Shown: piece after piece, positions 28,640-45,909 of the stretch | Layout of the letters: each line of letters begins with the position of its first letter | Numbering within the stretch: position 1 is the first letter of the stretch | DNA from: Flavobacterium sp. | GTDB taxonomy: Bacteria > Bacteroidota > Bacteroidia > Flavobacteriales > Flavobacteriaceae | NCBI RefSeq assembly: GCF_027484945.1 | Contig: NZ_JAIXRZ010000062.1 | Location: forward strand, 1 to 64,000 | Reading direction: 5' to 3' | DNA length: 64,000 nt | Translations under genes and position numbers: made by a program | The notes under the pieces: generated by a model | Database searches by the model: none | What the model saw: the letters and a program-made list of their open reading frames with translations, nothing else | Told to the model about the DNA's origin: nothing

Positions 28640-28957
28640 AATCAAATTATAAAGTATTGTAAAACAAATACTTAATAACATTATATATTAGAAGTGTCTT
28701 ATTTATGTCTTGTTTTAGTAATAAAATATTCTATATTTATAATAAAAGTAGAATATGAAAAAGATAAGGTCAAATATGGTCTTCCTGATTGAAATTCCTG
28801 ATTTTTAATTAAAAGAAGATTTACTTGAAAGTGTAAAAAAAAATACTTGATTTGATGGAAAATAAGAAGTTCATTAAGAGTTTAAATTCTAAACACGAAG
28901 AGGGTTTAGATATAAAACGTGATAATGGTTATTTTTTATAATAAGTGAATGTGATTG
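28640..28957. other. Gene-poor left end of the element
   Basis: This 318-bp AT-rich stretch has no convincing gene. It holds the arm-site-like pair at 28695-28711. Two plus-strand mini-ORFs, 28755-28808 (17 residues) and 28855-28941 (28 residues, starting MENKKFIKSL), lie in broken frames and may be remnants of one short decayed gene; I do not recognise it. Confidence 0.5.
28695..28711 (+). promoter_or_regulatory. Candidate left arm-type integrase sites, TGTCTT-N5-TGTCTT
   Basis: Two TGTCTT words spaced by 11 bp lie about 63 bp inside the left core. The same pair with the same spacing occurs inside the right end (44848-44864), next to the integrase start. Pairs of short direct repeats inside both ends are typical of arm-type binding sites of tyrosine integrases. 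Confidence 0.5.
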
Positions 28958-29620: not shown

Positions 29621-29621
29621 T

Positions 29622-32570
29622 TTATAATCCTTTTTGTTTCAAATAATCATTAAACATCACATCAATCAACATCGGTAGGACTTTTGGATTATTGACTTTC
29701 TTATAAAAATCCATTCTGTCAGAATAGTAATCACCGATATAATCACCAAATATTTCTTTGAAATATTCTTTTTTATCATCGTGAGAATTATTCCCCCTCA
29801 CAATAACATCTAATTCATTATTTTTAAATAACTTGGTTCCAACATCTTGAAGACACAATTTATCCCCATCTTTTAAATCCATACCAAACACCTCATTTAT
29901 TCTTTTGATGATTTCAGATAATAGTTCTTTTTCTTCCACACCAATACTTTTAGAACCTGTATCGGACATCGGGTCTAATTCCCCTTTTTTATCCTCTAAC
30001 GATAATTTCTCTTTACCTACGTATTGTATTCGTAATGAGTTCAAATCAATAGTATCGGTGATGGATAATCTTTCCCCTTCTTTTTTTGGTAGTTTTTTGT
30101 TTAGGAACCTCAAAAAGATATAAAGTTTCTCCCATCGTATTTCTGTGAAAGATGATATTTGAGAGATATATGAATACAGACGAATAAATGATTGAATAGT
30201 AGATTTGAACTCTTCTTTGATTTCCTCACTATCCAAATTTCTCCATTTATCTACCACCTCATCAACGATTGAATGTAGTTTCTCATCTGTATCTGTTTTT
30301 CTATAAAACTCCTCACAGAAATCGTTTATTTTATTTTGATTGAATAATTGGAATGTCTCAACCTTGTATTCCAAATCATAAAGTTTATCAGGGTCAGTTT
30401 CACCGGTTAATTCTGTGGTGGTATAGAATGGTTGAAATGAGGTTATAATGTCCTCTGTTTCATTTACAAAGTCCAAAACAAAAGTTTCTGTCTTACCTGA
30501 TTTTGTCCTGTTTAGTCTTGATAGTGTCTGGACACACTGAACTCCCCCTAATTTTTTATTTACATACATAGAACACAACATAGGTTCGTCAAACCCTGTT
30601 TGGAATTTATTGGAAACAATCAAAATTCTATATCTTGGGTCTTTGAAAGACGATGGAATATCAGTTCCAACCATTCCGTTAGAGTTGTTTAATGATACTT
30701 CGGTATTCTCAATCCCGTTATGAAAAATTGTTCCACTAAAACCAACTAAACAAGAATAGGGAAGGTTTTTTTGTTTCATTTGTTTCACCATCTCCTCTTG
30801 AAATAAAACACAAAGTTTTCTTGAACTTACAACCACCATACTTCTTCCTTTTCCTTCCAATTCTTTTGATGTTTTATTTACAAAGTGTTCCAAAATGATA
30901 GAAACTTTTTGTCGTATTACTTCGGGGTGATTATCTACATAATTCACCAACTCCCTTTTAACCTTTCCTTCCGGAAGTTCTATATCTTCTTTTCCTTCTT
31001 TTTGTAGAACTTTGAAGTATCTTTTATATGTCGTATAATTACTTAATACATCTAATGTGAAACCCTCGTGAATAGATTGTTTCATCGTATAAGAATGGAA
31101 TGGGACAAATGTTCCTTCCGGTGTTTTTCTTCCAAAAAGTTCAAGGGTTTTGTTTTTTGGTGTTCCTGTAAAACCAAAAAAACTAATATGATTTTGTTTT
31201 CCTCTACTTTCTATCTCCTCACGGATTAAATCTTCATAAGTATAATCAGTATCTTCGTCATCGTCAATCTCTTTGGATAAAGATTTTTTTAGATGTTTGG
31301 AACTTTCCCCACTTTGAGAAGAATGGACTTCATCTACAATTACACCAAAAGTATTTCCTTTAAGTTTTGAAATTGTCTCAGATATGACCGGGAATTTTTG
31401 GATTGTGGTAATAATAATATCTTTACCTTTTTCCAAATACTCTTTTAATTGGGATGAATTTATATCTACCGGATTAACAACTCCGTCTGTTTGTTGTAAG
31501 TCCTTTAATGTCTTTTGTAATTGTTTGTCTAAAACCTTTCTGTCCGTAATAACGATGATAGTATCAAATAACCTCTTTTTATCCTCTTTATTACGATAAA
31601 GTGAGGTTAAGGTATGAGACAACCATCCGATACTATAACTCTTCCCTGAACCGGTTGTATGTTGTATTAAGTAGTTGTGTCCGACACCTTCTTTTTTTAT
31701 TGTATTTTGAAGATTTCTTATCACTTCCAATTGGTGAAATCTTGGAAAAATTAAAACCTTGAATTTGGTTTCAACCACCTTTCCTTGTTTATCGTCCCAA
31801 TCTCTATCTTTTTCTTCTACAACAACTAAATAATTTTGGATAATGTCTAATAGTGAGTTGGGGGTCAATATTTCGTTCCACAGGAATTCGGTTCTGTAAT
31901 CACCATCAACTATTGGATTTGAAATTCCTTTGTTATATGGTAAGAATTTTGTTTTTGAACCTTTTAATTGGGAAGTCATACTTACCAGGTCATTATCAAT
32001 ACAAAAATGGACGAAACATCGTTGGAAGTTTAATAATGGTTCCTTCGGGTCTCTGTCGTGTTTATATTGATATTCAGAGTTTTTGATGTTCTGTCCGGTA
32101 AGTTGGTTTTTTAGTTCCATCATGATAATTGGAATACCATTTAAGAACAAAACCATATCAATTGAGTTTTTATTTCTGTTGGAGTAGTATAACTGACGAA
32201 CCACCACAAATCTATTCTTTTGGTGTAGGTCAATATGGTCTTGGTTCATTCCACTTTTTGGTTCAAAATAAACCAAGTCAAAAGAACAACCACGAGTAGA
32301 AAGACCTTTTCGGAGAGTTTCAACAATACCTCTTTTTCCGATTGTGTCGTTTATGGTTTTACATAAATGACTATCTGTTGAACTATCAAATTGGGAATAC
32401 AATTTGTCGTATTCTTCCGGTTGGGTGTCTTTAATAAAACCTATAACATCCTCTATGATTAAACATAAGTCCTTATCATATTCGGTGTATAATTTTGAGG
32501 TATAACCTTGATTATTGAGGGATTTTTCTATCCACTCCTCAAATCTATATTCTGATAGTTTTTTACTCAT
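29622..32570 (-). CDS. hsdR: Type I restriction enzyme, R subunit
   Basis: The 982-residue subunit cleaves DNA after ATP-driven translocation. It has the N-terminal nuclease motif D138 (IDMVLFLNGIP) and E152-L-K154, Walker A at about 306-311 (TGSGKS), a DEAD-like box VDEVHSS, motif III FFGFTGTPKN, and a late helicase segment TGFDEPMLCSMYVNKKLGG with QTLSRLNRT. All catalytic residues I would expect are present. It is separated from hsdS by a small unknown gene and is followed by a second nuclease-like gene. Confidence 0.96.
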   Translation of the reverse strand: MSKKLSEYRFEEWIEKSLNNQGYTSKLYTEYDKDLCLIIEDVIGFIKDTQPEEYDKLYSQFDSSTDSHLCKTINDTIGKRGIVETLRKGLSTRGCSFDLVYFEPKSGMNQDHIDLHQKNRFVVVRQLYYSNRNKNSIDMVLFLNGIPIIMMELKNQLTGQNIKNSEYQYKHDRDPKEPLLNFQRCFVHFCIDNDLVSMTSQLKGSKTKFLPYNKGISNPIVDGDYRTEFLWNEILTPNSLLDIIQNYLVVVEEKDRDWDDKQGKVVETKFKVLIFPRFHQLEVIRNLQNTIKKEGVGHNYLIQHTTGSGKSYSIGWLSHTLTSLYRNKEDKKRLFDTIIVITDRKVLDKQLQKTLKDLQQTDGVVNPVDINSSQLKEYLEKGKDIIITTIQKFPVISETISKLKGNTFGVIVDEVHSSQSGESSKHLKKSLSKEIDDDEDTDYTYEDLIREEIESRGKQNHISFFGFTGTPKNKTLELFGRKTPEGTFVPFHSYTMKQSIHEGFTLDVLSNYTTYKRYFKVLQKEGKEDIELPEGKVKRELVNYVDNHPEVIRQKVSIILEHFVNKTSKELEGKGRSMVVVSSRKLCVLFQEEMVKQMKQKNLPYSCLVGFSGTIFHNGIENTEVSLNNSNGMVGTDIPSSFKDPRYRILIVSNKFQTGFDEPMLCSMYVNKKLGGVQCVQTLSRLNRTKSGKTETFVLDFVNETEDIITSFQPFYTTTELTGETDPDKLYDLEYKVETFQLFNQNKINDFCEEFYRKTDTDEKLHSIVDEVVDKWRNLDSEEIKEEFKSTIQSFIRLYSYISQISSFTEIRWEKLYIFLRFLNKKLPKKEGERLSITDTIDLNSLRIQYVGKEKLSLEDKKGELDPMSDTGSKSIGVEEKELLSEIIKRINEVFGMDLKDGDKLCLQDVGTKLFKNNELDVIVRGNNSHDDKKEYFKEIFGDYIGDYYSDRMDFYKKVNNPKVLPMLIDVMFNDYLKQKGL

Positions 32571-32586
32571 TATATACTAAGGTTAT

Positions 32587-33036
32587 TTATTTGTAGATTT
32601 TAAAACATTCAATAAATTCATTCTCAAATATAGGTTTGTTAAACTCTTCAACCTCACCATTTACTTTTATAATGAATATTTCATAATTAGGTTTCATATC
32701 TTCCATCATTCCTGATATAGAGAAACGATATGATAAAATACTATCATCTTTACCTTTTAAAATAGTCCAAGAACCATATTCTGAACCTTTGTATGGTAAT
32801 GAATAACAGAGAATGAAATATCTTTCTGTAAAGAATTTTTCTAAGGTTTCTTTTTGTTTTTCAGTTTTTACTAATTGGGACAACTCATTATTTAAAAAAT
32901 CTATTAGTTCCACTTTTGGTTTAAAATATTCATTTCCACTATGAATAATAATTTTTTCACCTGTGAAACGATGTGTTGTTTCTTTTCTAGTATATTTTGG
33001 GTTAATAACTTCGTATAATAAATTGATTTTATACAT
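32587..33036 (-). CDS. Unknown protein between hsdS and hsdR
   Basis: The 149-residue soluble protein, rich in charged and aromatic residues, has no motif I recognise. It begins 15 bp after hsdS and ends 16 bp before hsdR, with the same codon bias as the rest of the operon, so it is translated with them. Candidates are an anti-restriction or control factor or a passenger gene. I cannot choose among them from the sequence. Confidence 0.7.
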   Translation of the reverse strand: MYKINLLYEVINPKYTRKETTHRFTGEKIIIHSGNEYFKPKVELIDFLNNELSQLVKTEKQKETLEKFFTERYFILCYSLPYKGSEYGSWTILKGKDDSILSYRFSISGMMEDMKPNYEIFIIKVNGEVEEFNKPIFENEFIECFKIYK

Positions 33037-33051
33037 ATATTAAAAATAATA

Positions 33052-34371
33052 TTAAACAACCTTTATTTTACCGGTGATTACCTCAGAAATAAGAGATTGT
33101 CGGTATTCTTTTAATAACTCTATTTTCTTTTGTTCCATCGAAACCAAATCATCAATTTCTTTGGTATGTGTATCCAAATAATCAACGATTTCTTGTTGTT
33201 CTTGAATGTTTGGAAATGATATTTTGAAGTTTTTAATATTTTCCCCCGTCAATCCTTCTCTATTACCTCCTGTTTGGAAATAATCAACTTGTGTTTGTCC
33301 TACTTTTGATTGAAGAATATAATTCAAGAAAAACGGGGAAAGTTTCTCCTTTTTTGTTCTAATAATACATACGTGTTGATTTACATTCATTTCATCTTCA
33401 TTTAATACAACACAACATCTCCCAATAGAACCACCTGTTATGTTAAGTAATAAATCATTAAAAATGACTTTACTACCACTCATTCCTATATGAGTTTCAT
33501 TAGTTATTCTACTAACATCATCCAATCTAAGTCCATTAAAATGGACGTTTTGACTTCTTATGAAAATAACCCCTTCATCAACATAAACCTCACTTCCACC
33601 TCTTGGGGTAATTCCTGAACCAACTTTATTCACGTAATATCGTAAAGTGGTATTATTCCAAATCTCGGGTATTTCTCCAATCCATTCCACACCACTATCT
33701 TTCATCTTCACATTAGGGTTTAGTCCTTTGGTGATTACTTGATTGATAAGTGTGGTTCTTTGTTCTTTTAATAGTTCTACCTTTCTTTGTTTGGTTGAAA
33801 TGAGTTTGTCAATAATGGTGGTTTTCTCGTCAAGGTAATTAACGATTTGTTCTTGTTCTTGGATTGGGGGAAGTATAGTATTGAAATTCCTAATTAAAGA
33901 AATTGATACCCCACCAATCAAACCACTTAATGATGAGTGAAATTGTAATTGAAAAAGAGGTGTTTGAATATAGTAATATTGAAATTTACTATTTGTTTTA
34001 GGTTCAAAACAACATAGTTTATTTACAAAATATACATCTTGTTCTAAATACCCCATTTTTTTTCCTGAACTACCACCTTCAATACATATGAGAAACGAAC
34101 CTTTTTTACCCAACTTAAAAGAGGTGTTTGATTTTGGTATTCTTAATCCATTATCATATTCTATACTCTGTGAGTTATAATCAATATCTTTGGTGGAGAC
34201 ATATGGTATATCATCTATATTTGAACTATCAAATAATTCTTTTTGATTATCGTTCAAACTACTCCCATTATATAAATTTGAGATGTATTTAAGTTTAATT
34301 AAATCCCAATTTTCAGGAATATCTCCAATCCATTCCACACCGGAAGGTTTATATGAATTATATTGTTCCAT
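33052..34371 (-). CDS. hsdS: Type I restriction enzyme, S (specificity) subunit
   Basis: The 439-residue protein has two target recognition domains. Each begins with a YKPSGVEWIGDIPENW-like signature (residues about 8-24, and SGVEWIGEIPEIW about 225), and each is followed by a conserved coiled-coil spacer (YLDEKTTIIDKLI, YLDTHTKEIDDLV, then EQRTTLINQVITKG). The two spacers are themselves repeats. The ATG overlaps the stop of the upstream DUF5655 gene by one base (TGATG), so it is translated by reinitiation. The recognised sequence cannot be read off. Confidence 0.93.
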   Translation of the reverse strand: MEQYNSYKPSGVEWIGDIPENWDLIKLKYISNLYNGSSLNDNQKELFDSSNIDDIPYVSTKDIDYNSQSIEYDNGLRIPKSNTSFKLGKKGSFLICIEGGSSGKKMGYLEQDVYFVNKLCCFEPKTNSKFQYYYIQTPLFQLQFHSSLSGLIGGVSISLIRNFNTILPPIQEQEQIVNYLDEKTTIIDKLISTKQRKVELLKEQRTTLINQVITKGLNPNVKMKDSGVEWIGEIPEIWNNTTLRYYVNKVGSGITPRGGSEVYVDEGVIFIRSQNVHFNGLRLDDVSRITNETHIGMSGSKVIFNDLLLNITGGSIGRCCVVLNEDEMNVNQHVCIIRTKKEKLSPFFLNYILQSKVGQTQVDYFQTGGNREGLTGENIKNFKISFPNIQEQQEIVDYLDTHTKEIDDLVSMEQKKIELLKEYRQSLISEVITGKIKVV

Positions 34372-35294
34372 CAGTCCTGTTTTTTATAAGATTGGGTTAT
34401 TAAAAACATAACATAATCCAACTCATCATTTGGACTTAATCTTAATTCATAATCACCATTACCCCAGTGTCCTTGACTACTCATATCTTTTGTTAAATTC
34501 TTGGGGTCGTCTAATTGTCCTTTCTTCAAATTAACCAATATTCTCAAATGGTCTGTGTAAAATACAACATCACAGAATGGTCTTTTCTTTCTAAATCCTA
34601 TGTATTCTTTTCGTGGTATTATTTCAACCTCTCCAAGATTTAATATTCTATCTTTAAGTTCGTTGTATAAATCCACAACTTTTTCATCCCGTCTAACATT
34701 TTTCTTGAAATGGTATTCTTCGGTATAAACTTTAACCTCTTTTGATACTTGATTAACAACATTTGATTTATCGTCTGATATAGTTGAAATACTTTCGTCC
34801 GATGTCGTCTTGTGTTGAACCAATCCAATCATATTGTTTTCATACTTCTTAACTTCCCACAATTCAAATGGAACATCCTTAAAGTTAATGGAGTGTTTTT
34901 GGTATTCGGTAAAGTGTGGTGATACAAATATGACCTTTGATTGTGTCCAATCAATATCATCTCGTTTTAATAACCCTCCACAATTTTCATTATATTCAAG
35001 TATGAAGTCAGATTTATTGTTTAACATTAAAGACATATAGGTATATCCTTGGTCTATGACTGAAAAGTTCCGGTCTTTTTTGTATTCAATAATAACGAAA
35101 GATTTGTTTTCACTATCGTATCCAAGAGTATCAATACGGAAACTCTTTATAGAGAACTCCGATTTAACAAATTGTAGATTAAATAATTCTTCCAAGTTCT
35201 TTTCAAACAGAACTTGTATTTCCTTTTCCAAATCAAATTTGATGTTGGAAACAGGTTTTAATTTTGTCTTGTCTTGTATGGAGTATAGTTTCAT
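34371..35294 (-). CDS. DUF5655 family nuclease-like protein
   Basis: The 307-residue protein has an N-terminal half like the DUF5655/NucS-like family with a possible PD-(D/E)XK core: D55 in FRIDTLGYD and E70-Y-K72 in VIIEYKKDRN. The C-terminal quarter has the DUF5655 repeat-like region (PFCDVVFYTDHLRI, VNLKKGQLDDP, GHWGNGDYEL). Its ATG overlaps the hsdM stop by one base and its stop overlaps the hsdS start by one base, so it lies within the core R-M operon. Such genes are frequent beside type I systems, but the function is not established. Confidence 0.78.
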   Translation of the reverse strand: MKLYSIQDKTKLKPVSNIKFDLEKEIQVLFEKNLEELFNLQFVKSEFSIKSFRIDTLGYDSENKSFVIIEYKKDRNFSVIDQGYTYMSLMLNNKSDFILEYNENCGGLLKRDDIDWTQSKVIFVSPHFTEYQKHSINFKDVPFELWEVKKYENNMIGLVQHKTTSDESISTISDDKSNVVNQVSKEVKVYTEEYHFKKNVRRDEKVVDLYNELKDRILNLGEVEIIPRKEYIGFRKKRPFCDVVFYTDHLRILVNLKKGQLDDPKNLTKDMSSQGHWGNGDYELRLSPNDELDYVMFLITQSYKKQD

Positions 35295-36997
35295 TATTTA
35301 ACCAATTCATTCATTAAACCATCACTCTCTTTTTCCAACTCCAATAAATCTTTTAACACATCCTGAAACGAACGGAGTGGAGTGTATTTGTAGAAGTATT
35401 TGGTAAAGTTAATTTCATAACCCACCTGTGTTTTGTCCTTATCCACCCAAGAATTTGGAAGATGTGGTTTAACCTCTTTTTCAAAATAATCATCAATATC
35501 AACATCAAGTGGTATTCTTTCAGTATCTCTTAATGAACCATCAGGTTTAAGATTTCCTTTTTTATCCATAACCACTTTACCATCTTGAACCAAAGGTTGT
35601 TCTATGGTAAGTTTTTTGTATCCAAAATACTCGTTGGAATAAATTTTGGAGATTTCATTTTCTTTGAAGTCCTCATATACTTTAAGGATGTAATTTCTTC
35701 CCTGTTCTGATATTTCTTTTCTCTTGTTCCCCAAAGATTTTTTGAGTGGTCTAAAATAGTTTGAACCATCTATGAGTTGAATTTTACCTCGTCTCTCTTT
35801 TGATTTTTTCTTACCTAAAATCCATAGGTAGGTTGTAATACCTGTGTTGAAGAAAAGTTGGTCGGGAAGTTGAACGATACATTCTAACCAGTCATTTTCA
35901 ATAATCCATCTTCTTATTTCACTCTCACCGGAACCACTATCACCACTAAAAAGAGGGGAACCATTAAATACAATACCAATACGGGAATTATTGTCCTTGA
36001 ACTTTGAGATTAGATGTTGAAGGAATAACAAAGAACCATCAGAACTTCTTGGTGTTCCCACCGAAAATCTACCATTTGGATTTTGACTTTCAGTTTTTAC
36101 AAAATCTTCTTCCGACTTCCACGAAACACCGAATGGGGGGTTCGTAATTTGATAATCAAACTTTTTATCAATAAATTTATCATCGGATAATGAAGACCCC
36201 AATTTAATATTGTCCGGGTTCTCTCCTGTAATCAAAAAGTCAGATTTACAGATTGAGTATGTTTGGGGGTTAAGTTCCTGACCGAATAGATTTATTATAA
36301 CCTTATCTGACATATTTTCTTCAACCCATCTTTTCCCAAGTGTTAATATACCACCTGTCCCACAACAACAATCAAAAATGGAACGGATAAGTCCATCACC
36401 TTTTAGATTGTCTTTACTTCCGGACATAACCAAAGAAACAAGTAATGATATAATATCTCTCGGGGTGTAATGTTCCCCTGATGTTTCATTACTCATCTCA
36501 GAGAATTTACGTAATAATTCCTCAAATATCATCCCCATCGTATGATTATCTACCACGTTCGGGTGAAAATCAACTTCCGATAGTTTATCAATTAAAATAT
36601 AGAGTTTGTTATTTTTTAATAGTTTTTCAACCGGTTTATCCAATTGGAAGTTTTCCAAAATTTCAAAGACATTTTGTGAATATCCGTTGATGTAATTATT
36701 AAAGTTAATTTTAAGACCTGATGTGTCCCCCTTTAATCTGTTCAAATCATAATTTGAATGATTAAAGAACACCAATCCTGTTTTCTTCTTGATGATGGGT
36801 GAGATATCATCAATATCATTTTTAAGTTGTTGGTATAGTGATATTACTTCCTCCTTGTGGGGTTCAATAATACAATCTAATCTTCGTAATACTATAAATG
36901 GAATTATTACATCTCCATATTCGTGAGGTTTGAATAAACCTCTTAATACATCATCACAGATGTTCCATATAAGAGAAGATACTTCTTGGTGTTTCAT
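35294..36997 (-). CDS. hsdM: Type I restriction enzyme, M (methylase) subunit
   Basis: The 567-residue N6-adenine methylase has the SAM-binding motif I as DCCCGTGGIL (CCC in place of the usual PAC), and the catalytic motif IV NPPFGVSW. An N-terminal helical domain (VSSLIWNICDDVLRG) fits HsdM, and a C-terminal tail contains the region that docks HsdS. It is the first gene of the operon hsdM-DUF5655-hsdS-unknown-hsdR-nuclease, all on the minus strand. With hsdS and hsdR it should make a full R2M2S complex. Confidence 0.95.
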   Translation of the reverse strand: MKHQEVSSLIWNICDDVLRGLFKPHEYGDVIIPFIVLRRLDCIIEPHKEEVISLYQQLKNDIDDISPIIKKKTGLVFFNHSNYDLNRLKGDTSGLKINFNNYINGYSQNVFEILENFQLDKPVEKLLKNNKLYILIDKLSEVDFHPNVVDNHTMGMIFEELLRKFSEMSNETSGEHYTPRDIISLLVSLVMSGSKDNLKGDGLIRSIFDCCCGTGGILTLGKRWVEENMSDKVIINLFGQELNPQTYSICKSDFLITGENPDNIKLGSSLSDDKFIDKKFDYQITNPPFGVSWKSEEDFVKTESQNPNGRFSVGTPRSSDGSLLFLQHLISKFKDNNSRIGIVFNGSPLFSGDSGSGESEIRRWIIENDWLECIVQLPDQLFFNTGITTYLWILGKKKSKERRGKIQLIDGSNYFRPLKKSLGNKRKEISEQGRNYILKVYEDFKENEISKIYSNEYFGYKKLTIEQPLVQDGKVVMDKKGNLKPDGSLRDTERIPLDVDIDDYFEKEVKPHLPNSWVDKDKTQVGYEINFTKYFYKYTPLRSFQDVLKDLLELEKESDGLMNELVK

Positions 36998-37075
36998 TTT
37001 TAATATTTTAATGAAACAAAAATATACATAAAAAATCTAATATCCCAGAGTTAAATTATGTAAGATTATTTCTAA

Positions 37076-37603
37076 CTACAAAATCCACCAATTTATCTCC
37101 CGCGAATTATAATATACTTCCTTAATAATATAGTTTTCAAGGGTATAATCGTCTGTTTTAGAATATATCTTTACTGAATATACAAAACCTTCGTCCCATA
37201 GTAAATCAACGGATTTAGTGAGGTCAGAATAGTTGGTTGATGTTTTGAGTAAGATATGTATGTGTGGTCTGTCTTTTTTCTCTATAACATAAAATACTCT
37301 TTCAACATCTACAACACTCTTTAATCTATTAATAAATCGTTCAGTCAGTTTATTGATATGTCTTTTTGTTAGTATTTCTCTTGTTGTTAATGTTATGAAG
37401 TAGTTATATTCCTGTTCTTTTAGGAAGTGTTTTAATGATGTTTTATATAAATCATTCTTGATATATGATGGAGTTTTATTTAATTCGTTTTCAAGTTTTT
37501 TTCTCAACCGGTAGTTTCTTTGGTTGGTTCTGTTCTGATGTTTTCTTCTTTCTTTGTATTTGACTTCTTCTTCAATTGTTTTTATCTTTTTATTCCTTCC
37601 CAT
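37076..37603 (-). CDS. HUH-type replication initiator-like protein (Rep_1-like)
   Basis: The 175-residue protein has a Lys/Arg-rich start and then the three motifs of HUH endonucleases: motif 1 YFITLTT (68-74), motif 2 RPHIHILL with the HUH pair H114 and H116, and motif 3 YIIK with Y158 as candidate nucleophile and K161. The pattern resembles pC194/pUB110-type rolling-circle initiators, though the protein is shorter than most (about 230-310). It stands between hsdM and the unknown genes with its own hairpin 27 bp upstream. Activity is inferred from motifs only. Confidence 0.75.
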   Translation of the reverse strand: MGRNKKIKTIEEEVKYKERRKHQNRTNQRNYRLRKKLENELNKTPSYIKNDLYKTSLKHFLKEQEYNYFITLTTREILTKRHINKLTERFINRLKSVVDVERVFYVIEKKDRPHIHILLKTSTNYSDLTKSVDLLWDEGFVYSVKIYSKTDDYTLENYIIKEVYYNSREINWWIL

Positions 37604-37629
37604 ATTTATTGATTACTATGTTTATAGAT

Positions 37630-37657
37630 GGGGATATTCTTATCAAGTGATGTCCCC
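37630..37657 (-). other. Candidate rolling-circle origin (dso) hairpin with CTTGATA loop
   Basis: Arms GGGGATAT (37630-37637) and ATGTCCCC (37650-37657) pair over 8 bp with one G-T wobble, leaving a 12-base loop. On the minus strand, the Rep coding strand, the loop reads CACTTGATAAGA. CTTG|ATA is the nick sequence of pC194-type plasmids and of phiX174. The hairpin starts 27 bp upstream of the HUH gene. A second small inverted repeat (GACTA / TAGTC, 37658-37675) lies beside it. Confidence 0.6.
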
Positions 37658-37854
37658 GACTACATATAAATAGTCCAATTAGAAAAAAAGTAAATTTATT
37701 TTGATTTTTTTTTCGTCCGGGAAGTATTGTAAATAAAGGGATTGTTGTTTTTTTTGAAAAAAACTTCATTTTTTTTTGATTACTCCCCTTGACTATGAAT
37801 TTTATTTCACCTATTCATTTCACATATAAAATTATTAACTAAAAAAATTAAAGT

Positions 37855-38154
37855 ATGGAAGTAAAATTATTGACGAACGGACAAAGTGAGATTAAAAAAA
37901 TTTCAATTAAAACATTAAAAAAATTAAGTGATTATAATTTTGGGAAACTTAATAGAAATATTGATATTGATGTTTTAGAAAAGGTTTATAAAATTAAAAA
38001 ATTTAATAAAGTAGAATTACAGACCATTTTAATACATCATCATTTTATGGGAAAATTAACTAAACCACATTATAGATGTTGGGTAAAGGTTCAAGGTTTG
38101 AATATTTTAGGTTTTCAAGATATTTTCATAAATCAGTGGGAAGAGTTAAAATAA
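37855..38154 (+). CDS. Unknown small basic protein
   Basis: The 99-residue, lysine-rich, very AT-rich gene starts a plus-strand cassette of four genes. There is a plausible A/G-rich site upstream of the ATG. It has no recognisable domain. The pattern KLTKPHYRCWVKVQG is conserved-looking, but I cannot place it. Its gene ends 42 bp before the next one. Confidence 0.55.
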   Translation: MEVKLLTNGQSEIKKISIKTLKKLSDYNFGKLNRNIDIDVLEKVYKIKKFNKVELQTILIHHHFMGKLTKPHYRCWVKVQGLNILGFQDIFINQWEELK

Positions 38155-38196
38155 AATTATATTATTAAGTTTGTAAATTAAAAAAAAATAGAAATT

Positions 38197-38619
38197 ATGA
38201 AATTACAAGAATTAAAAAAAGTTGAAACAATTGAGGATTTTAGAGAAACCTTATTAAAATTATTTGTCTCAAATCCTGAAAAAAGAGAGATTTACTTAAA
38301 ACCAACACTTCTTTCTGAATTTTATTCGGAAATGAATAAAAGACCATTCTATTATTCAGTTGATAAAATTAATTCCTTAACTGATTTTTATAGATTGGAT
38401 TGTATGGGTATGGTTAAAATTAAAGACAAGAAATTCCAAACAACCGATAATGTGTGGGATTTGAATGAAGAAGAAATAATGAATTTAGAAATTGTTGAAG
38501 ATAATAATGAATTTATAAGTAAGGTTAAAAATTCATCTTGGTTTATGATTGGAAATGGAAAACCAAATATGATACTTCAAAATATATGTAGTGGTGATTT
38601 TATTAGAAATAATAAATAA
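38197..38619 (+). CDS. Unknown soluble protein
   Basis: The 140-residue acidic protein shows mixed helices and strands, with the segment SVDKINSLTDFYRLDCMGM in the middle. No family is recognised. It follows the 99-residue gene on the same strand by 42 bp and precedes the two membrane proteins. An element-specific role is likely but untestable here. Confidence 0.55.
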   Translation: MKLQELKKVETIEDFRETLLKLFVSNPEKREIYLKPTLLSEFYSEMNKRPFYYSVDKINSLTDFYRLDCMGMVKIKDKKFQTTDNVWDLNEEEIMNLEIVEDNNEFISKVKNSSWFMIGNGKPNMILQNICSGDFIRNNK

Positions 38620-38742
38620 GAATTGGAGTTGTTATATAATTAGTTATAATTAATTTTATAACAGAAAACTTATAATTCTATTGTGATTTTTTTAATTTTG
38701 AAGTTAATTTTAGTTTGTATGTTAAATTAATACGATTTATAA

Positions 38743-38982
38743 ATGGGTTATTTTTTATTTTCTGTTTTATTTTTAGTTGGACTCTCTTTTGTTTTTACTT
38801 TAATTTCAGTATTTTTTTCATCAAGAGAAGAAAATAAAAATGGAAGTTCAAGTTTTATGGAAAAATTTACTAGAATACTAATTGTGTTAATTATTATTAT
38901 GGTTATTGGTTTTCTTAGTGAAAAGTGTGGTTGTTCCTCCGAAGATGAACCTGATTACCCTATGAAATATCAACCTGATTAA
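38743..38982 (+). CDS. Small membrane protein
   Basis: The 79-residue protein has two hydrophobic helices (about 3-25 and 45-62) separated by a charged stretch (SSREENKNGSSS), and a short tail with CGCSSEDEPD. A TAATTTTG promoter-like box at about 38691-38698 lies 45 bp upstream. Small membrane proteins of this type occur in abortive-infection systems, immunity and plasmid maintenance modules, but none is recognised here. Confidence 0.5.
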   Translation: MGYFLFSVLFLVGLSFVFTLISVFFSSREENKNGSSSFMEKFTRILIVLIIIMVIGFLSEKCGCSSEDEPDYPMKYQPD

Positions 38983-38987
38983 TTTTT

Positions 38988-39003
38988 ATAACTTATACTT
39001 TTG
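38988..39003 (+). promoter_or_regulatory. AACTTATACTTTTG promoter/operator element, copy 1
   Basis: ATAACTTATACTTTTG includes TACTTTTG, a perfect TAnnTTTG box, 29 bp before the next ATG. The same AACTTATACTTTTG string recurs at 40680-40693, upstream of the small recombinase. This suggests a shared regulator for both genes. Confidence 0.5.
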
Positions 39004-39031
39004 TTATAGGTCTTAAAATAATTTAGTTATA

Positions 39032-39394
39032 ATGAATAAAAATTTAAAGTCATTTTTATACACATTATTTTTTTTATACATATTGTATTTGTGTATCAAA
39101 GGTTTAGTAAAACTTTTTTGGAAACCGAAAAATCAAGATGAATTAATGTCAAAAACAAAATTTGTATTTATTTTGTTTTTGTTATTCAGTTTTTGTTTTA
39201 TTTTAATAGTTCATCATTTATTTGAATACGAACAGGTAAATCGTATATACAAAGGGTATTTATATTCAGTATTTGTTTTGTTAATAGTTGGAATTTTAAA
39301 TAACGAAATTTTTAATTTTGGATTTAAAAATTCAAACGACAAGAAATTAGACATTAATGAATTATTTGATTACTACAATAAGTCAAAAAAATAA
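39032..39394 (+). CDS. Unknown membrane protein
   Basis: The 120-residue protein has about three hydrophobic helices (residues about 8-27, 43-62 and 77-92) with charged loops and a hydrophilic C-terminal tail. It is preceded by the shared AACTTATACTTTTG element and converges with the 390-residue gene, the stops being directly adjacent (39394 and 39395). The function is unknown. Confidence 0.5.
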   Translation: MNKNLKSFLYTLFFLYILYLCIKGLVKLFWKPKNQDELMSKTKFVFILFLLFSFCFILIVHHLFEYEQVNRIYKGYLYSVFVLLIVGILNNEIFNFGFKNSNDKKLDINELFDYYNKSKK

Positions 39395-40567
39395 TTAATT
39401 TTTGTAAATAAATTTTACTCCAAGTTTATTAATTATATAACCAAATCCAACCCAAAAAGTTAGTTTTATTAAAAAGGGGAAAACACCAAAAAAATTAATA
39501 TTTGAAAATAAAATAAGAGTAAGTAATACCAAAAACAAATAAATACTCAAATATAAAAACTCTAACTTAATAAAATTACCAAATAACTTTACTTTATTAT
39601 TTTTCTTAATAGATGTTAATTCAATATTGAAGGAGTTTAAGACATCTTTAATTTCTTTTATCTTAAAACTAATTTCAACGGAGGAATTATTTTTCAAAAA
39701 GAATGTTGTATTTTTTAGATTTTTATGATAGATATTATCTTTGAGAAAAAATATTTTATTTTTATGATACAATTTAAAATCAATAGTATTTTCTCTAATT
39801 TCTGACACTTCACATATTGTATTGAACTCTATTCCTATAAAATTTTCTATTCCTTTCTTTTTGGTATTAAATTCTTCTAATTTTTTTTCATTAAACACCT
39901 TGTTTTGGAATGAGTTTAAATCAGATTTTGTTTGTCTAGATTGGTATCTTAATTCATCTAATTCTAATAAAACATATAATAAATCTTTGAAGGAATTTAT
40001 CTTTGAATAAATTTGTTCTTGATTTTGAATTTCTATTTGAGGTTGTTTTTTTAATTCTAATTTTAGACTTTCAATATCTTGACTAAATACTTTTTCCTCA
40101 ATTAATTTAAATTCAAATATTTCAATAATTATATTTACACAATTATGGGAACATTGTTGTTGATTATTTAAATTTACACTTTCGACTGATTTTATAAAAC
40201 CAGATATTTCTATTTTAATTATATCACCTTCATCTAACTTTTTAATTATTTCAAGTAAATCATTTTTTACTATTATTTGAAAATTAAAAGATATTACATC
40301 TGAATTATAAACATATCCACTTGTTTTCCTTACTACATATCTTTGATTTATATTATATTTTTCTACAAAATGAATATTATTATTTTCAAACGATATTCCA
40401 AATGGTTTTTTATAGGTTATTGTATCTATTATTTGGTAATCTTTTATTATCTCTATCCATTCATAATCAAATAATTTTTTAAATTTTAAATGTTCTTCAA
40501 AACTTTCGGGATATTTTATGTTTTCACAATAATCAATTATATTATTTTTTAATTCTATCAATTTCAT
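39395..40567 (-). CDS. Unknown protein with C-terminal membrane hairpin
   Basis: The 390-residue protein is soluble-looking for about 320 residues, with a Lys/Glu-rich coiled region (about 155-225), then two hydrophobic helices near the C-terminus (FLYLSIYLFLVLLTLILF and FFGVFPFLIKLTFWVGFGY). The N-terminal part contains strand-rich segments such as FGISFENNNIHFV. I do not recognise the family. It is divergent from the small recombinase, with the AACTTATAC repeat cluster between. Confidence 0.55.
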   Translation of the reverse strand: MKLIELKNNIIDYCENIKYPESFEEHLKFKKLFDYEWIEIIKDYQIIDTITYKKPFGISFENNNIHFVEKYNINQRYVVRKTSGYVYNSDVISFNFQIIVKNDLLEIIKKLDEGDIIKIEISGFIKSVESVNLNNQQQCSHNCVNIIIEIFEFKLIEEKVFSQDIESLKLELKKQPQIEIQNQEQIYSKINSFKDLLYVLLELDELRYQSRQTKSDLNSFQNKVFNEKKLEEFNTKKKGIENFIGIEFNTICEVSEIRENTIDFKLYHKNKIFFLKDNIYHKNLKNTTFFLKNNSSVEISFKIKEIKDVLNSFNIELTSIKKNNKVKLFGNFIKLEFLYLSIYLFLVLLTLILFSNINFFGVFPFLIKLTFWVGFGYIINKLGVKFIYKN

Positions 40568-40605
40568 CTCAACTTATTTTTTGTAAATTTAAATAAATTA
40601 CAAAG

Positions 40606-40634
40606 AACTTATACAATTGTCATAAGTATAAGTT
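40606..40634. promoter_or_regulatory. AACTTATAC inverted repeat, pair 1
   Basis: AACTTATAC (40606-40614) and its complement GTATAAGTT (40626-40634) are separated by 11 bp. The pair lies just upstream of the 390-residue gene on the minus strand. Together with the pair at 40678-40720 it suggests an operator for a dimeric regulator, or binding sites of the recombinase. Confidence 0.5.
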
Positions 40635-40639
40635 AAAAA

Positions 40640-40664
40640 AACCTGACTATCAATTAGTTAGGTT
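40640..40664. terminator. Hairpin terminator between divergent genes
   Basis: AACCTGACTA and TAGTTAGGTT form a 10-bp stem (one G-T wobble) with a 5-base loop, flanked by A-rich and T-rich runs. Its place between two divergent genes is odd; it could block readthrough in both directions or attenuate a leader transcript from the left repeat. Confidence 0.65.
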
Positions 40665-40677
40665 TTTTTATGATGTT

Positions 40678-40720
40678 ATAACTTATACTTTTGTTGATTT
40701 TATATAAAAGTATAAGTTAT
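40678..40720. promoter_or_regulatory. AACTTATAC inverted repeat, pair 2, over the recombinase promoter
   Basis: Perfect 15-bp arms ATAACTTATACTTTT (40678-40692) and AAAAGTATAAGTTAT (40706-40720) flank a 13-base spacer. The inner AACTTATAC words are spaced 21 bp apart, 10 more than in pair 1, that is one helical turn. TACTTTTG boxes occur at 40686-40693 and again at 40726-40733, so a bound regulator would cover the promoter. Confidence 0.55.
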
Positions 40721-40748
40721 TTTATTACTTTTGTAAAAAAAAAAGATT

Positions 40749-41339
40749 ATGAGTAGATTAGGTCAGAACACTACAACTTCATTTATAGAATGGAACGATT
40801 TTATATCTCTAATAACACGATTGGAGAATGATAAAGAGTATAAATTTTGTTTGTTAATCTCTATCGGTGTTTTTACGGGGGTTAGAATATCAGACCTTTT
40901 AACTTTAAAATTTTCACATATTCTAAATGAAGATGTCTTTTTACTTACCGAAAAGAAGACAAAAAAAGATAGAAGTATTAAGGTTAATTCCACCTTGAAA
41001 GAGATAGTCCAAAGAATTTACAATAAGTCCGATATTTCAAACCAAGATGAACTTATATTTCTGAATAAGTATGGAACCAAGAGTATTGATAAGTCCTATG
41101 TGAATGTTAAACTTAAAGAATTGTTCTCTAAATACAGAATTAGGGTAAAAGGGAATGTATCCACTCATACATTTAGAAAAACACTTGGGAGAAGGGTTGT
41201 TGAAGTGAGTAATTATTCAAATGAGAGTTTGGTTCTATTGATGGAGTTGTTCGGACACTCTAATATGGGAATTACAAAACGATATTTGGGTATTACAAAA
41301 GACGAAATACATAATGTATATGATTGTTTAACTTTTTAA
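40749..41339 (+). CDS. Small tyrosine recombinase (catalytic domain only)
   Basis: The 196-residue protein has the full set of catalytic residues: R46 (GVRISDL), a lysine in the TEKKTKKDR hairpin (about 69-70), H140-x-x-R143 (HTFRK), H170 (FGHSN) and the nucleophile Y179. It lacks the usual N-terminal core-binding domain, so it may act as a small recombinase on plasmid-like or resolution sites, or be a reduced integrase. A TACTTTTG box at 40726-40733 and the AACTTATAC palindromes lie upstream. It is separate from the large integrase. Confidence 0.88.
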   Translation: MSRLGQNTTTSFIEWNDFISLITRLENDKEYKFCLLISIGVFTGVRISDLLTLKFSHILNEDVFLLTEKKTKKDRSIKVNSTLKEIVQRIYNKSDISNQDELIFLNKYGTKSIDKSYVNVKLKELFSKYRIRVKGNVSTHTFRKTLGRRVVEVSNYSNESLVLLMELFGHSNMGITKRYLGITKDEIHNVYDCLTF

Positions 41340-41353
41340 TTAAACCCCGTTAG

Positions 41354-41713
41354 ATGAAAGAACAAGATTTATATTGTAGGATAATAAATAAGTTGTTGAA
41401 CCAGTTGATGAAAAAAAAATATAATTATGACTTTGTGTTTTATCTACACCCGGTTCAACACTTATTAAATAGAGAATTAAACTCTGATTTTTATTCAATT
41501 GATGAAATTGTATCAGTTAATATAAAAACATCAATCAGAATGTTTGAATATGATATTTTAACTAATGAAATTAAAGATTGTTTGAATTTAATTATACCTA
41601 TGGTAGAAGGTTCTGAATACAGGGAAATAAACAAAGTCAAACTTAAAATTAAATCACCGATTGTCTCCGGAACTCTTGTCCGAACAATCCCCACGATGAA
41701 ACAACAAAATTAG
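41354..41713 (+). CDS. Unknown protein downstream of the small recombinase
   Basis: The 119-residue protein follows the recombinase by 14 bp on the same strand, so they are co-transcribed. It has no recognised motif. Its 3' end overlaps the convergent gene at 41649-42119 by 65 bp, which is unusual. Composition is typical of the element (Lys/Ile/Asn-rich). Confidence 0.5.
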   Translation: MKEQDLYCRIINKLLNQLMKKKYNYDFVFYLHPVQHLLNRELNSDFYSIDEIVSVNIKTSIRMFEYDILTNEIKDCLNLIIPMVEGSEYREINKVKLKIKSPIVSGTLVRTIPTMKQQN

Positions 41714-42119
41714 ATTTGAATGTTTGTTTTAGTATTTCATCGTCATTAAATGAGATTTCTATTTTGGTAGGTTTTATGATTTTTGAAATTCTTGATTTCA
41801 TCTCCAATTCGTTGAACTTTTTATTGAGTTCAATAAAAATGTTTATCTCTACTTTGTCGTTGTGAATAGTAGAATGGTGAAGTCCATTTTTACCTATCAA
41901 ATTAAAAAAAACTCTGTTATTAGGAAGGTTTGGAGAAAGTGAGTTTTTGTTGTTCCGTAATTTTTTAAGGAACTCACCGATTGTATTACATTTTCTGTAA
42001 AAATCTTGAATATCAAAAGTTAATTGTATGATACAATAATCTTTATTTTTTATTTCAATTTCTTTTTCTTGTTTTAATTCTTCTAATATTGACTTTATCC
42101 TTTGAGTTAATTTATTCAT
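41649..42119 (-). CDS. Unknown protein, minus strand
   Basis: The 156-residue protein has a helical, Lys/Glu-rich start (about 1-40) and a strand-rich rest. It resembles no family I know. It converges on the gene at 41354-41713 and overlaps it by 65 bp at the 3' end. Upstream lie the hairpins at 42142-42193. Confidence 0.5.
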   Translation of the reverse strand: MNKLTQRIKSILEELKQEKEIEIKNKDYCIIQLTFDIQDFYRKCNTIGEFLKKLRNNKNSLSPNLPNNRVFFNLIGKNGLHHSTIHNDKVEINIFIELNKKFNELEMKSRISKIIKPTKIEISFNDDEILKQTFKSNFVVSSWGLFGQEFRRQSVI

Positions 42120-42141
42120 TAAAATAGTGATGGTTTCGTCA

Positions 42142-42193
42142 AAGGGATAATCCCTTTTGTTTATTTATAGGTAAATAGGACTATAAAGTCCTA
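42142..42193. other. Two compact hairpins upstream of the 156-residue gene
   Basis: AAAGGGAT and ATCCCTTT (about 42141-42157) form one inverted repeat, and TAGGACT (42176-42182) and AGTCCTA (42187-42193) a second with a 4-base loop. They could be a terminator for the gene at 42241-42834 (minus strand) or part of a structured origin. Neither has a clear T-run. Confidence 0.5.
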
Positions 42194-42240
42194 AACTACT
42201 CCTAAAAGTTTCCAGAGAAAAGGTTGGATTATGGGGGTGT

Positions 42241-42834
42241 TTAATCCTCGTTGTGTAATTCAAAATTAGGGAAATCTAATAAATTTCCATTTTCATCAAA
42301 ATTTAACCACTGAACCGGAAGTAAAGGTATTTGTCTTATTTCGTCCATATTTAACCCAACTACATTTTCCAAATAATCAACTCTTTTTTTAGTGAATTGT
42401 TGTTGATTATAGTTTATGAATATGATATGTAATAACATATCCATAGACGAACAATCAATTTGTCCTTTATCGTTGTCTATGGTGTAGTATATTATTTTTA
42501 GTATAGGGAAATTTTCTTCATAACTAAACTTTACCTTGAAGAATGTATTTGTCCCCAAGAATAAGTGTTTATCTCTATCTATTAGGTTTTTTATTCCTTC
42601 AAATGAGAAATATTCTTCCGTATCAATACACAACTTAACTACTCTTTCAATCATATTAAATTTCATCGGAAAAGTAATTACTTTTTCAGTTAAAACTATC
42701 TGTTCTATTATTTGAAAAATCTCTTTTGAGTTTTTATTCTTGTTAGGGAATTGTGGGAAATCGTCTATGTAATGTGTGTTGTTTTCTATGTCTTTTACAA
42801 CATCAAATCCATTTATTGTAAATTTTTTTTTCAT
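42241..42834 (-). CDS. Unknown protein
   Basis: The 197-residue protein is acidic and mostly helical/strand mixed. No motif is recognised. It is oriented like the large integrase gene (43043-44845) and lies downstream of it, with the G-rich block between. The C-terminal segment LPVQWLNFDENGNLLDFPNF looks compact and perhaps conserved, but I cannot assign it. Confidence 0.5.
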   Translation of the reverse strand: MKKKFTINGFDVVKDIENNTHYIDDFPQFPNKNKNSKEIFQIIEQIVLTEKVITFPMKFNMIERVVKLCIDTEEYFSFEGIKNLIDRDKHLFLGTNTFFKVKFSYEENFPILKIIYYTIDNDKGQIDCSSMDMLLHIIFINYNQQQFTKKRVDYLENVVGLNMDEIRQIPLLPVQWLNFDENGNLLDFPNFELHNED

Positions 42835-42936
42835 AAAAAGGTCTTTAACTATAAGTAGTTAGTTTTTATGGAAAAGTCAATTTATAACTCAAAATTTTAG
42901 AAATTTTTTTTGAGGATTTTGTTTAAGATATAGTCC

Positions 42937-43017
42937 CCCATATTTTCACTTTATGGGGTAAGGGGTCTATAAGTGGGAGGATACAAGGGGGGATGGGAGG
43001 AGGTGGAGATTACCACC
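42937..43017. other. G-rich structured block between two hairpins
   Basis: CCCCATA / TATGGGG (42937-42959, 9-base loop) opens the block. Five G runs of 3-6 bases follow (42956-42997), then GGTGG / CCACC (43002-43017, 6-base loop). In surrounding DNA that is extremely A+T-rich this is a sharp exception. A G-quadruplex is possible on the plus strand, though two of the loops are 9 bases, longer than the usual limit. Confidence 0.6.
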
Positions 43018-43042
43018 ACAAAGTAAGTAGGGTTATAATTGT

Positions 43043-44845
43043 TTATTTTTTTATTTTTCCAAAACTATCGGATAATCTTTTACCCATATCATCAATCCTT
43101 GTGTTTATAAAACTTTGTATGTATGATTGTGTGGTTGATATGTGTTGATGTCCTAATGAAACAGATAAGTCATATAGGTTTATGTCTTTATTGTTTTTAA
43201 TTAAAATAGATGTATATGAATGTCTTGATTTGTGGGAAGTTAAATTAGGTATTCCAATTTGTTTTCCCATTATTTTAAGAAGTTGATTGTAATAACTTCT
43301 TCTCCCCGAAAGTTTATTGTATTGATATTCATTCATCTTTTCAAACATCTTTTCATTTTTAATATCTAAAAAGTCCTTATCTTCAAGTAAAGGAAAAATA
43401 AAATTATTTGAATATTCATCATCCATCAAAATTTCCTTTACAATACCTATCATCTTTGAATATAAATTTTTGTGTAAATTATCAATAGAATTTAACCTTA
43501 ATTCAATTTTTTTATTTACCCTATCTTCAACTAAATTTCTCAGATTTTTTAAGTAATTTAATTCAACATCTTCTAATAACATATTTTTTATATAATTAGA
43601 TTTATTGACTTCATCCATACTTTTTTCAAATTTTCTAAAAGGATTAACAGAATAACTACCATCATAAACATCTGTTTTTTTATGAGTAAGATGTTTAATT
43701 ATTATATCACATTCTTTTAATGATGTTATGATGTTTTTACCATCATTCTGTTTGAAAAATTTAATGTAATTTTCATCTACATAACTAATTTTAATTTTTA
43801 CATTATTGTTTAATAAATTGTAATCCACTTTCTTGTTTTTTTCAATAAAAAACAATCCATATTGGTAGTTTATTTTTCTAATGTATTCATATGTTTCTTT
43901 TAATTCATTTGAAATAAATTTTTCCGGTAAGTAGTTGAAAATTATTTGTAATGGTTTTTCATATAATAGTATATTGATAGGATGTTTTGTCTTCAACATT
44001 ATTTTTTTTATCCTAATTTCATCACCATTTATATTTAAGTTATTCCAACGAAGGGTCATCAAGTCAGACACACGTAATCCGTGATTAAAGAATTGGAATA
44101 AGAAAAAATTTCTAACATCGTTAATTGATAATAGTTGAGAATATCTACTATCTAACTCTCTTTTTTTTCCTTTGTTTTTTCCACTTTTAATTACATCGTA
44201 TAATTCAGAATATAAGATTGTATTTATTTGGTCTTCATCCAAAAAATCAACATCAACCCTCCTTATAGTAGTTTTAATATTGTTGAATGGGTTTGGGTAG
44301 TATATATAATATCTTTGGTTTATTGATTTTGAAATAAACGACTTAAATGTTTTTGTTTTATAGGAAATACTATTATCAACAATTCCCCTGTCTTTTTTCA
44401 ACCAAACTATCCATTCATTTATATAATCTTCGTTTATGTCTTTGAATAATACGTCTTCCTTATTAAATTTTGTTTTGTTAAATAACTTTACTAAAAATAA
44501 TATGTTCTTATATTTTTGAGAAGTTCCTACACTCTTACAATTCGGTAATAATTTAGTTTCAACAAAAAACACTAATGATTTTTTTTCATCAGAAATAAAA
44601 TCTGTCCTTTTTACAATACTATATTTATTGATGTATTTTTCAATTTCATCATTATAAAACTGATAATCGGTAAGGGTGTGTTTAACACGTTGTTTAGTTT
44701 CGTCCCAGTGTCTTTTATGAATTGGAGGAAGTTTTAATGAAGTAATCTTAGTTTTACCTATATCAGTTAATCTCTCACTTACTCTCAAATACCCCTGTTT
44801 TTTATCAGGACTATTGGATTTCCAAACAATTTTTATTTTATTCAT
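43043..44845 (-). CDS. Large tyrosine integrase adjacent to right end
   Basis: The 600-residue protein has the catalytic R258 (HGLRVSDLMTL), H538-x-x-R541 (HKSRH), H566 (GHQH) and Y575 (QSYIQ). An N-terminal arm-binding and core-binding region precedes it. R258 and H538 are 280 residues apart, where Bacteroidetes integrases usually have about 100, so the catalytic domain carries a large insertion. The gene lies 117 bp inside attR and is transcribed away from it. Its start overlaps the candidate arm sites at 44848-44864. It is the likely integrase of the element. Confidence 0.9.
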   Translation of the reverse strand: MNKIKIVWKSNSPDKKQGYLRVSERLTDIGKTKITSLKLPPIHKRHWDETKQRVKHTLTDYQFYNDEIEKYINKYSIVKRTDFISDEKKSLVFFVETKLLPNCKSVGTSQKYKNILFLVKLFNKTKFNKEDVLFKDINEDYINEWIVWLKKDRGIVDNSISYKTKTFKSFISKSINQRYYIYYPNPFNNIKTTIRRVDVDFLDEDQINTILYSELYDVIKSGKNKGKKRELDSRYSQLLSINDVRNFFLFQFFNHGLRVSDLMTLRWNNLNINGDEIRIKKIMLKTKHPINILLYEKPLQIIFNYLPEKFISNELKETYEYIRKINYQYGLFFIEKNKKVDYNLLNNNVKIKISYVDENYIKFFKQNDGKNIITSLKECDIIIKHLTHKKTDVYDGSYSVNPFRKFEKSMDEVNKSNYIKNMLLEDVELNYLKNLRNLVEDRVNKKIELRLNSIDNLHKNLYSKMIGIVKEILMDDEYSNNFIFPLLEDKDFLDIKNEKMFEKMNEYQYNKLSGRRSYYNQLLKIMGKQIGIPNLTSHKSRHSYTSILIKNNKDINLYDLSVSLGHQHISTTQSYIQSFINTRIDDMGKRLSDSFGKIKK

Positions 44846-44847
44846 TA

Positions 44848-44864
44848 TGTCTTAATTGTGTCTT
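44848..44864 (+). promoter_or_regulatory. Candidate right arm-type integrase sites, TGTCTT-N5-TGTCTT
   Basis: This pair has the same word and 11-bp spacing as at the left end and sits 3 bp upstream of the integrase ATG. Integrase bound here would also block its own promoter, giving autoregulation. It lies about 98 bp from the right core. Confidence 0.5.
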
Positions 44865-44949
44865 AAAAAAGAAACAAAAATAACATTTATTTTATAAAAT
44901 ACAAAACATAATTAACTGATTATAATTTAATTAAGTATGGGTAAAAGTA

Positions 44950-44957
44950 TATCTTTG
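44950..44957 (+). promoter_or_regulatory. Outward TATCTTTG box at the right end
   Basis: A perfect -7 box within 12 bp of the right core points out of the element into the yifB 3' fragment. Its upstream -33 region has only a weak TTTA. If active it would transcribe the AAA+ half of yifB from an ATG 35 bp downstream (44992). Confidence 0.5.
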
Positions 44958-44961
44958 TGTC

Positions 44962-44969
44962 GTCAAAGG
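44962..44969 (+). repeat. Right attachment core, GTCAAAGG (attR)
   Basis: Second copy of the 8-bp core. The sequence to its right reads on as GGT CAA GAG, which restores the DVKGQE phrase of YifB. To its left an imperfect inverted arm CTTTG (44953-44957) faces CAAAG (44964-44968), as in tyrosine-recombinase core sites. Confidence 0.85.
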
Positions 44970-45909
44970 TCAAGAGTCGATTAAACGCTGTATGGAAATT
45001 GCGGCAGCTGGCGGTCATAATATTATTCTCATCGGTCCTCCAGGCGCTGGTAAAACGATGTTGGCCAAACGATTACCCAGTATTTTACCTCCAATGACGC
45101 TTCGGGAGGCATTGGAAACAACCAAGATTCATAGTGTAGCTGGCAAGGTCAAGGAGGTCGGACTTATTAGTCAACGTCCGTTTCGGAATCCACACCATAC
45201 CGCTTCTTCAGTCTCGTTGGTTGGTGGAGGAAGTTATCCGCAGCCAGGTGAAATTTCGTTAGCTCATAACGGGGTATTGTTCTTGGATGAGTTACCCGAG
45301 TTTAAAAGGGAAGTGTTGGAGGTTATGCGACAGCCTCTTGAAGACCGAGAAGTGACGATTTCACGAGCAAAATTCACCATTACCTATCCGTCTTCATTTA
45401 TGTTGGTAGCGAGCATGAATCCGAGTCCGGGTGGGTATTTTAATGATCCTAATGCTGCGGTTACCACATCACCATCCGAAATGCAACGCTACTTAAGTAA
45501 AATTTCAGGTCCACTTTTGGACCGAATCGACATTCATATTGAAGTCACTCCAGTGCCTTTTGATAAGTTGGCCGACCGGCAGCGATCGGAGGGGAGTTCT
45601 ATCATTCGCGAACGCGTAATTGCCGCCCGTGAACTCCAAACCCAGCGCTTTTCTGACATACCATCGATTCATTACAATGCACAAATGAATACACAATTAA
45701 TACGCACCTATTGTGATTTGGACACAACCTCACTAACTTTGTTGAAAAGTGCAATGGAACGATTGAATTTGTCTGCACGTGCCTATGATCGAATTTTAAA
45801 AGTAGCCCGAACCATTGCCGATCTCGAAGCATCGCCAACTGTTCAAGCTTCACATATCGCTGAGGCCATTCAATACCGCAGTTTAGATCGTGAAGGTTGG
45901 TTGGGATAA
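44962..45909 (+). pseudogene. yifB: YifB/ComM ATPase, 3' fragment (interrupted)
   Basis: This frame holds the AAA+ half of Yif[20 protein letters not shown], Walker [13 protein letters not shown], the family phrase [18 protein letters not shown], Walker [10 protein letters not shown] and the C-terminal Mg-chelatase domain. The first in-frame ATG is 44992. It is complete in itself and could be translated if transcribed by the outward box just upstream, but it lacks the N-terminal domain and is not likely to be a working ComM. Confidence 0.93.

Follow-up and report, generated by a model that had tools for sequence, protein, structure and literature searches.

A microvirus-type candidate origin hairpin beside a minimal HUH protein gene in a defence island integrated in comM

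Introduction

The pairing of an integrase with a rolling-circle initiator is already known from two kinds of integrative element. Actinobacterial AICEs such as pSAM2 combine a tyrosine integrase and a phiX174/pC194-type initiator, RepSA, with an FtsK-like transfer protein (PMC3218068). Streptococcal integrative and mobilisable elements (IMEs) that encode Rel_PHA00330 combine an integrase with a microvirus-type initiator, and most of them also have a TcpA coupling protein (PMC5357655). A single protein serves both replication and mobilisation in ICEs such as ICEBs1 (PMC5704250), and CTTGATA has been reported as the conserved nick site of Rep_1 plasmids (PMC10378824).

Here we analysed a window of 64,000 nucleotides of Flavobacterium DNA, in which an integrated element carries a short replication-initiator (Rep) gene. 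The initial annotation found the gene combination of the element unlike any family it could name; the same kind of combination occurs in both AICEs and streptococcal IMEs. The island differs in phylum, comM target, minimal nuclease, microvirus-type hairpin and defence cargo. The streptococcal IMEs belong to Firmicutes, and the likeness to them was drawn from gene content. Neither the FtsK-like protein nor RepSA of AICEs was found in the island. Within an incomplete literature coverage, we found no paper on such an arrangement in Bacteroidota.

Results

The island in comM and its cargo

The Rep gene sits inside an island of about 16.3 kb (28633-44969) that interrupts comM and has a GC content of 27%, against 37-38% in the flanks. 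The island is bordered by a direct repeat, and joining the flanks restores comM as 511 codons without a break, which bears out the earlier view of a comM-targeted tyrosine-integrase element. The 600-aa integrase adjoins the right junction, and together with the attachment sites it is a feature that the island shares with integrative and mobilisable elements and AICEs. The cargo consists of a type I restriction-modification (R-M) system, a PADLOC candidate defence protein encoded between HsdM and HsdS, and a weakly DUF559-like gene; small genes with no database match are also present. Pfam revealed no coupling protein, TraB/TcpA-like ATPase or other mobilisation gene among the ORFs tested, several of which were matchless, and no capsid gene was recognised in the element.

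Table 1 Features of the island and its borders in the window.
Feature	Position	Strand	Basis
comM 5' part (interrupted)	28037-28639	+	
attL core GTCAAAGG	28625-28632	.	
Cargo block	28958-36997	-	type I R-M, PDC-S18 and weakly DUF559-like gene
Weakly DUF559-like gene	28958-29620	-	
HsdR	29622-32570	-	type I R-M
HsdS	33052-34371	-	type I R-M
PDC-S18	34371-35294	-	PADLOC, E 4e-126
HsdM	35294-36997	-	type I R-M
Predicted minimal HUH endonuclease / rolling-circle initiator, 175 aa	37076-37603	-	PF23343, phrog_3419, microvirus Rep profile
Candidate origin hairpin GGGGACAT-CACTTGATAAGA-ATATCCCC	37630-37657	-	sequence, fold, loop likeness to microviruses
Second, short tyrosine recombinase, 196 aa	40749-41339	+	PF00589 (4.6e-18), phrog_216
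Tyrosine integrase at comM junction, 600 aa	43043-44845	-	PF00589 and PF13102; H538xxR541, Y575
attR core GTCAAAGG	44962-44969	.	
comM 3' part (interrupted)	44992-45909	+	

Because the element has two tyrosine recombinases, we also considered a strand-biased circularising element (SE). This identity was rejected: the defining gene set of SEs is intA-tfp-intB-srap, they have no gene for an HUH endonuclease, and none has been found outside Gammaproteobacteria (PMC10214605), while the element has an HUH gene.

A minimal HUH protein of the microvirus/G2P kind

Phage-type HUH initiators carry the motif YxxKYxxK, with two tyrosines four residues apart. The intact Rep gene encodes a protein with ITLT at position 70, HIH at 114 (H114-I-H116) and YIIK at 158 (Y158-I-I-K161). 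The protein matches the Pfam family PF23343 (REP_ORF2-G2P) at 31.6 bits, above the curated cut-off of 27.8, and phrog_3419 (rolling circle initiation) at E 9.5e-5, in keeping with its earlier description as an HUH protein. The further label of Rep_1-like did not hold, as PF01446 gave no match up to E 1 and the nearest proteins are microvirus initiators. In a tblastn search against phages, the only relatives were weakly similar microvirus replication initiators (best E 9e-3), and a profile built from 18 such initiators matched the protein at 24.5 bits. In the profile alignment, ITLT, RPHIHILL and LWDEGF meet the conserved motifs I and II and the LW..GF region, with RPHIHILL, an HxH following a hydrophobic strand, aligned to RpHYHiil.

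The third motif keeps YxxK but lacks a second tyrosine at the usual spacing: only YIIKE is present, and Y153 and Y158 lie five residues apart. Judged by its motifs, the protein would therefore fall outside the phage-type class, though not outside PF23343. Since it ends soon after motif III, it comprises little beyond the nuclease domain. Structure prediction had been proposed earlier as a check. The single-sequence AlphaFold model (pLDDT 65) has the order beta-alpha-beta-beta-alpha-beta, which is compatible with HUH but not specific to it, and Foldseek returned generic ferredoxin-like folds, with Y1 transposases among the weak matches (2ec2, 2a6m, E ~0.01). Family matches and motifs together assign the product to HUH proteins of the microvirus/G2P kind, not to Rep_1.

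No close homologue of the protein was found in 300 congener genomes, 395 genomes of the class or plasmids, or when GTDB and viral contigs were scanned by pattern; likewise, pattern scans of GTDB and IMG/VR revealed no close homologue of Rep or the integrase. Weak matches within the genus turned out to be unrelated proteins, DHH phosphoesterases among them, and one further candidate locus (L002) encoded a polyphosphate-kinase-like protein.

The candidate origin hairpin upstream of the Rep gene

The hairpin lies 26 bp from the Rep start codon. Read along the minus strand from 37657 to 37630, it consists of GGGGACAT, the loop CACTTGATAAGA and ATATCCCC, and the loop contains CTTGATA at 37647-37641 on the Rep strand, exactly as first annotated. 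The 8-bp stem described for it stands in position but not in full pairing: on the Rep strand 7 of 8 pairs form and one C.A mismatch remains, where the plus strand has G.T, and this makes for a weak fold of the Rep-strand hairpin (-4.1 kcal/mol; z -1.2 for 36 nt and -2.2 for 72 nt). A nick motif in a hairpin loop, near rep and on the rep strand, is the arrangement of a rolling-circle origin (dso), here with a weak stem. By sequence comparison, the predicted nick would fall between G at 37644 and A at 37643 (CTTG/ATA).

How exceptional the hairpin is was estimated with a definition fixed post hoc (stem of 8, at least 7 pairs, at least 4 of them G-C). Only two places in the 16.3-kb element comply, the Rep hairpin and one at 42934, and the probability of at least one such hairpin within 251 bp upstream of the Rep gene is P = 0.024 under these post hoc criteria. 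The score of the best CTTG-loop hairpin was reached in 2% of shuffles (P ~0.02). The word CTTGATA is not enriched, with 7 occurrences in the window against 10 expected, and Rfam gave no match. Taken alone, without comparison, the evidence from the hairpin is marginal.

Matching hairpins in microviruses

A Rep-strand hairpin with a CTTGA loop is present in 6 of the 7 microviruses nearest to the island protein, which served as discovery set, and in 9 of 15 fresh genomes taken down the ranking and chosen before their sequences were inspected. The opposite strand has such hairpins in 0/7 and 2/15, and 20 shuffles yielded them in 0-1 of 15. Among loop 5-mers CTTGA ranks first, a place that it shares with TTGAT in the second set. 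One example, in microvirus L045, is GCACGGGTAG[AACTTGATA]CTACCCGTGC; over both sets (L045-L066) the total is 15 of 22.

CTTGA-loop hairpins are likely a general origin signature of microviruses, and by analogy with CTTGATA in Rep_1 plasmids they may mark the nick sites of the initiators. The island shares with Microviridae (PHA00330/VP4-like initiators) the HUH family, motifs I and II, the LW..GF region and a Rep-strand hairpin with ACTTGATA in its loop. Unlike them, its protein is missing the C-terminal part and has no canonical YxxKYxxK, and its gene belongs to an integrated 16-kb element. It likewise shares the CTTGATA site, though not PF01446, with pC194-type plasmids.

A sister element and other Bacteroidota islands

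Another genome of the same genus contains a second comM-integrated element (L037), whose integrase is 38-40% identical. At 0.8 kb from this integrase lies the gene for a protein of 179 aa that contains HCHILLK and YLIKQ, has no Pfam match and scores -1.8 bits against the microvirus initiator profile; its motifs qualify it as HUH-like, and no relatives were found elsewhere in the 300 congeners. The hairpin TTCGTTTTA[CTTGTCAT]TAAAACGGA lies 118 nt upstream of the HUH-like gene on its strand, with CTTG in the loop, and was equalled in 0.3% of shuffles (P 0.003). The left flank of the locus (1-1001) is a repeat-protein gene, not comM, which could reflect cargo, rearrangement or misassembly.

In a distant Bacteroidota family, three loci (L040-L042) all combine an integrase of 412-432 aa with a 130-aa PF23343 protein. 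About 140 nt upstream of the HUH gene they have the hairpin GGCGTACCGGGG.../CCCCGGTACGCC, with a stem of 12-14 bp and a loop that contains CTTG in two of the three and CTTT in the third. They also have a MerR-like small ORF in common, and by eye their cargo differs: HNH and MazG-like genes; an AAA/OLD-like ATPase with a partner and a large NTPase; and a reverse transcriptase. A tyrosine recombinase is present in the same locus for 10 of the 16 chromosomal PF23343 loci found in Bacteroidota. No CTTG hairpin was seen just upstream of larger PF23343 proteins (L067-L072), so the arrangement is not universal.

Proposed mechanism and alternative readings

We consider it probable that a minimal HUH initiator nicks the element at this hairpin and thereby supports rolling-circle copying, and perhaps mobilisation, after excision. 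The 600-aa integrase would insert the element in comM and later excise the island, and the 175-aa protein would bind the hairpin upstream of its own gene and cut the Rep strand at CTTG/ATA through a tyrosine, most likely Y158. Host helicase and polymerase would then copy the excised circle by rolling circle and release a circle of single-stranded DNA that might be used for copy-up, maintenance or transfer. With the canonical second tyrosine lost, termination may be single-round and plasmid-like. The main support for the putative origin is comparative: the hairpins of microviruses, of the sister element and of the other islands make the rolling-circle origin first proposed for this site plausible.

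The protein might instead act mainly as a relaxase with the hairpin as oriT, the element being mobilised through the conjugation machine of another element. The PHA00330 initiators of streptococcal IMEs are indeed regarded as relaxases (PMC5357655, PMC5704250), and ICEBs1 can mobilise plasmids with Rep_1 proteins (PMC5704250); however, the Pfam search found no coupling-protein or mobilisation gene among the ORFs tested, and the nearest relatives of the protein are phage replication proteins, which leaves this reading unlikely. We judge it less probable again that the hairpin is incidental, or that it is regulatory and works as an operator in the gap that separates the divergent Rep gene and ORF 37855, with the HUH gene a decayed leftover of a phage or plasmid. 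The weak fold, the P of only 0.02 from the window alone and a protein that ends 14 residues past YIIK fit such an account. Yet the Rep gene is intact, no terminator-like site is present at the hairpin, the loop agrees with microvirus loops on the correct strand, and a like arrangement recurs in the sister element and in unrelated islands with equally minimal HUH proteins. In a last reading, the protein is a Y1 transposase of the RAYT/IS200 type and its target a REP-like hairpin. Such an enzyme would also be a short HUH protein with a single Y..K motif, and the weak structural matches noted above include Y1 transposases, but Y1_Tnp gave no Pfam match, replication initiators were matched instead, and no further copies of the hairpin were found in the element; this reading is scarcely credible.

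If the hairpin is a nick site of the proposed initiator, then integrative elements of Bacteroidota that carry defence genes are linked to a replication module of microvirus type, made up of the protein and its matching hairpin; the site also offers a precise predicted nick position for testing, and suggests a route to multiplication or movement for islands in which no relaxase is recognised. CTTGA-loop hairpins may also help to predict origins across the large collection of uncultured microviruses. It is conceivable, though less likely than not, that integrative defence islands of this sort make up a broad class in Bacteroidota, their core being a tyrosine integrase plus a stripped-down HUH nickase with its own CTTG-loop hairpin, a replicon module common to them and microviruses, with swappable cargo (restriction systems, reverse transcriptases and other defence).

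A second hairpin and a G-rich tract

The second hairpin of the element, CCCCATA[TTTTCACTT]TATGGGG (42931-42972), occupies the gap that separates the integrase from its neighbouring gene. It was not ranked as a copy of the origin by gapped local alignment. TAGTC and TCTATAA flank both this hairpin and, on its strand, the Rep hairpin, and no other site in the window has such flanks; the pattern was picked post hoc, with about 0.1 expected by chance, and the flanks are possibly an initiator-binding sequence. The same region, 42933-43033, is the sole G-rich tract in the AT-rich element (50-55% GC), and the GGGG runs on its plus strand possibly form a G-quadruplex.
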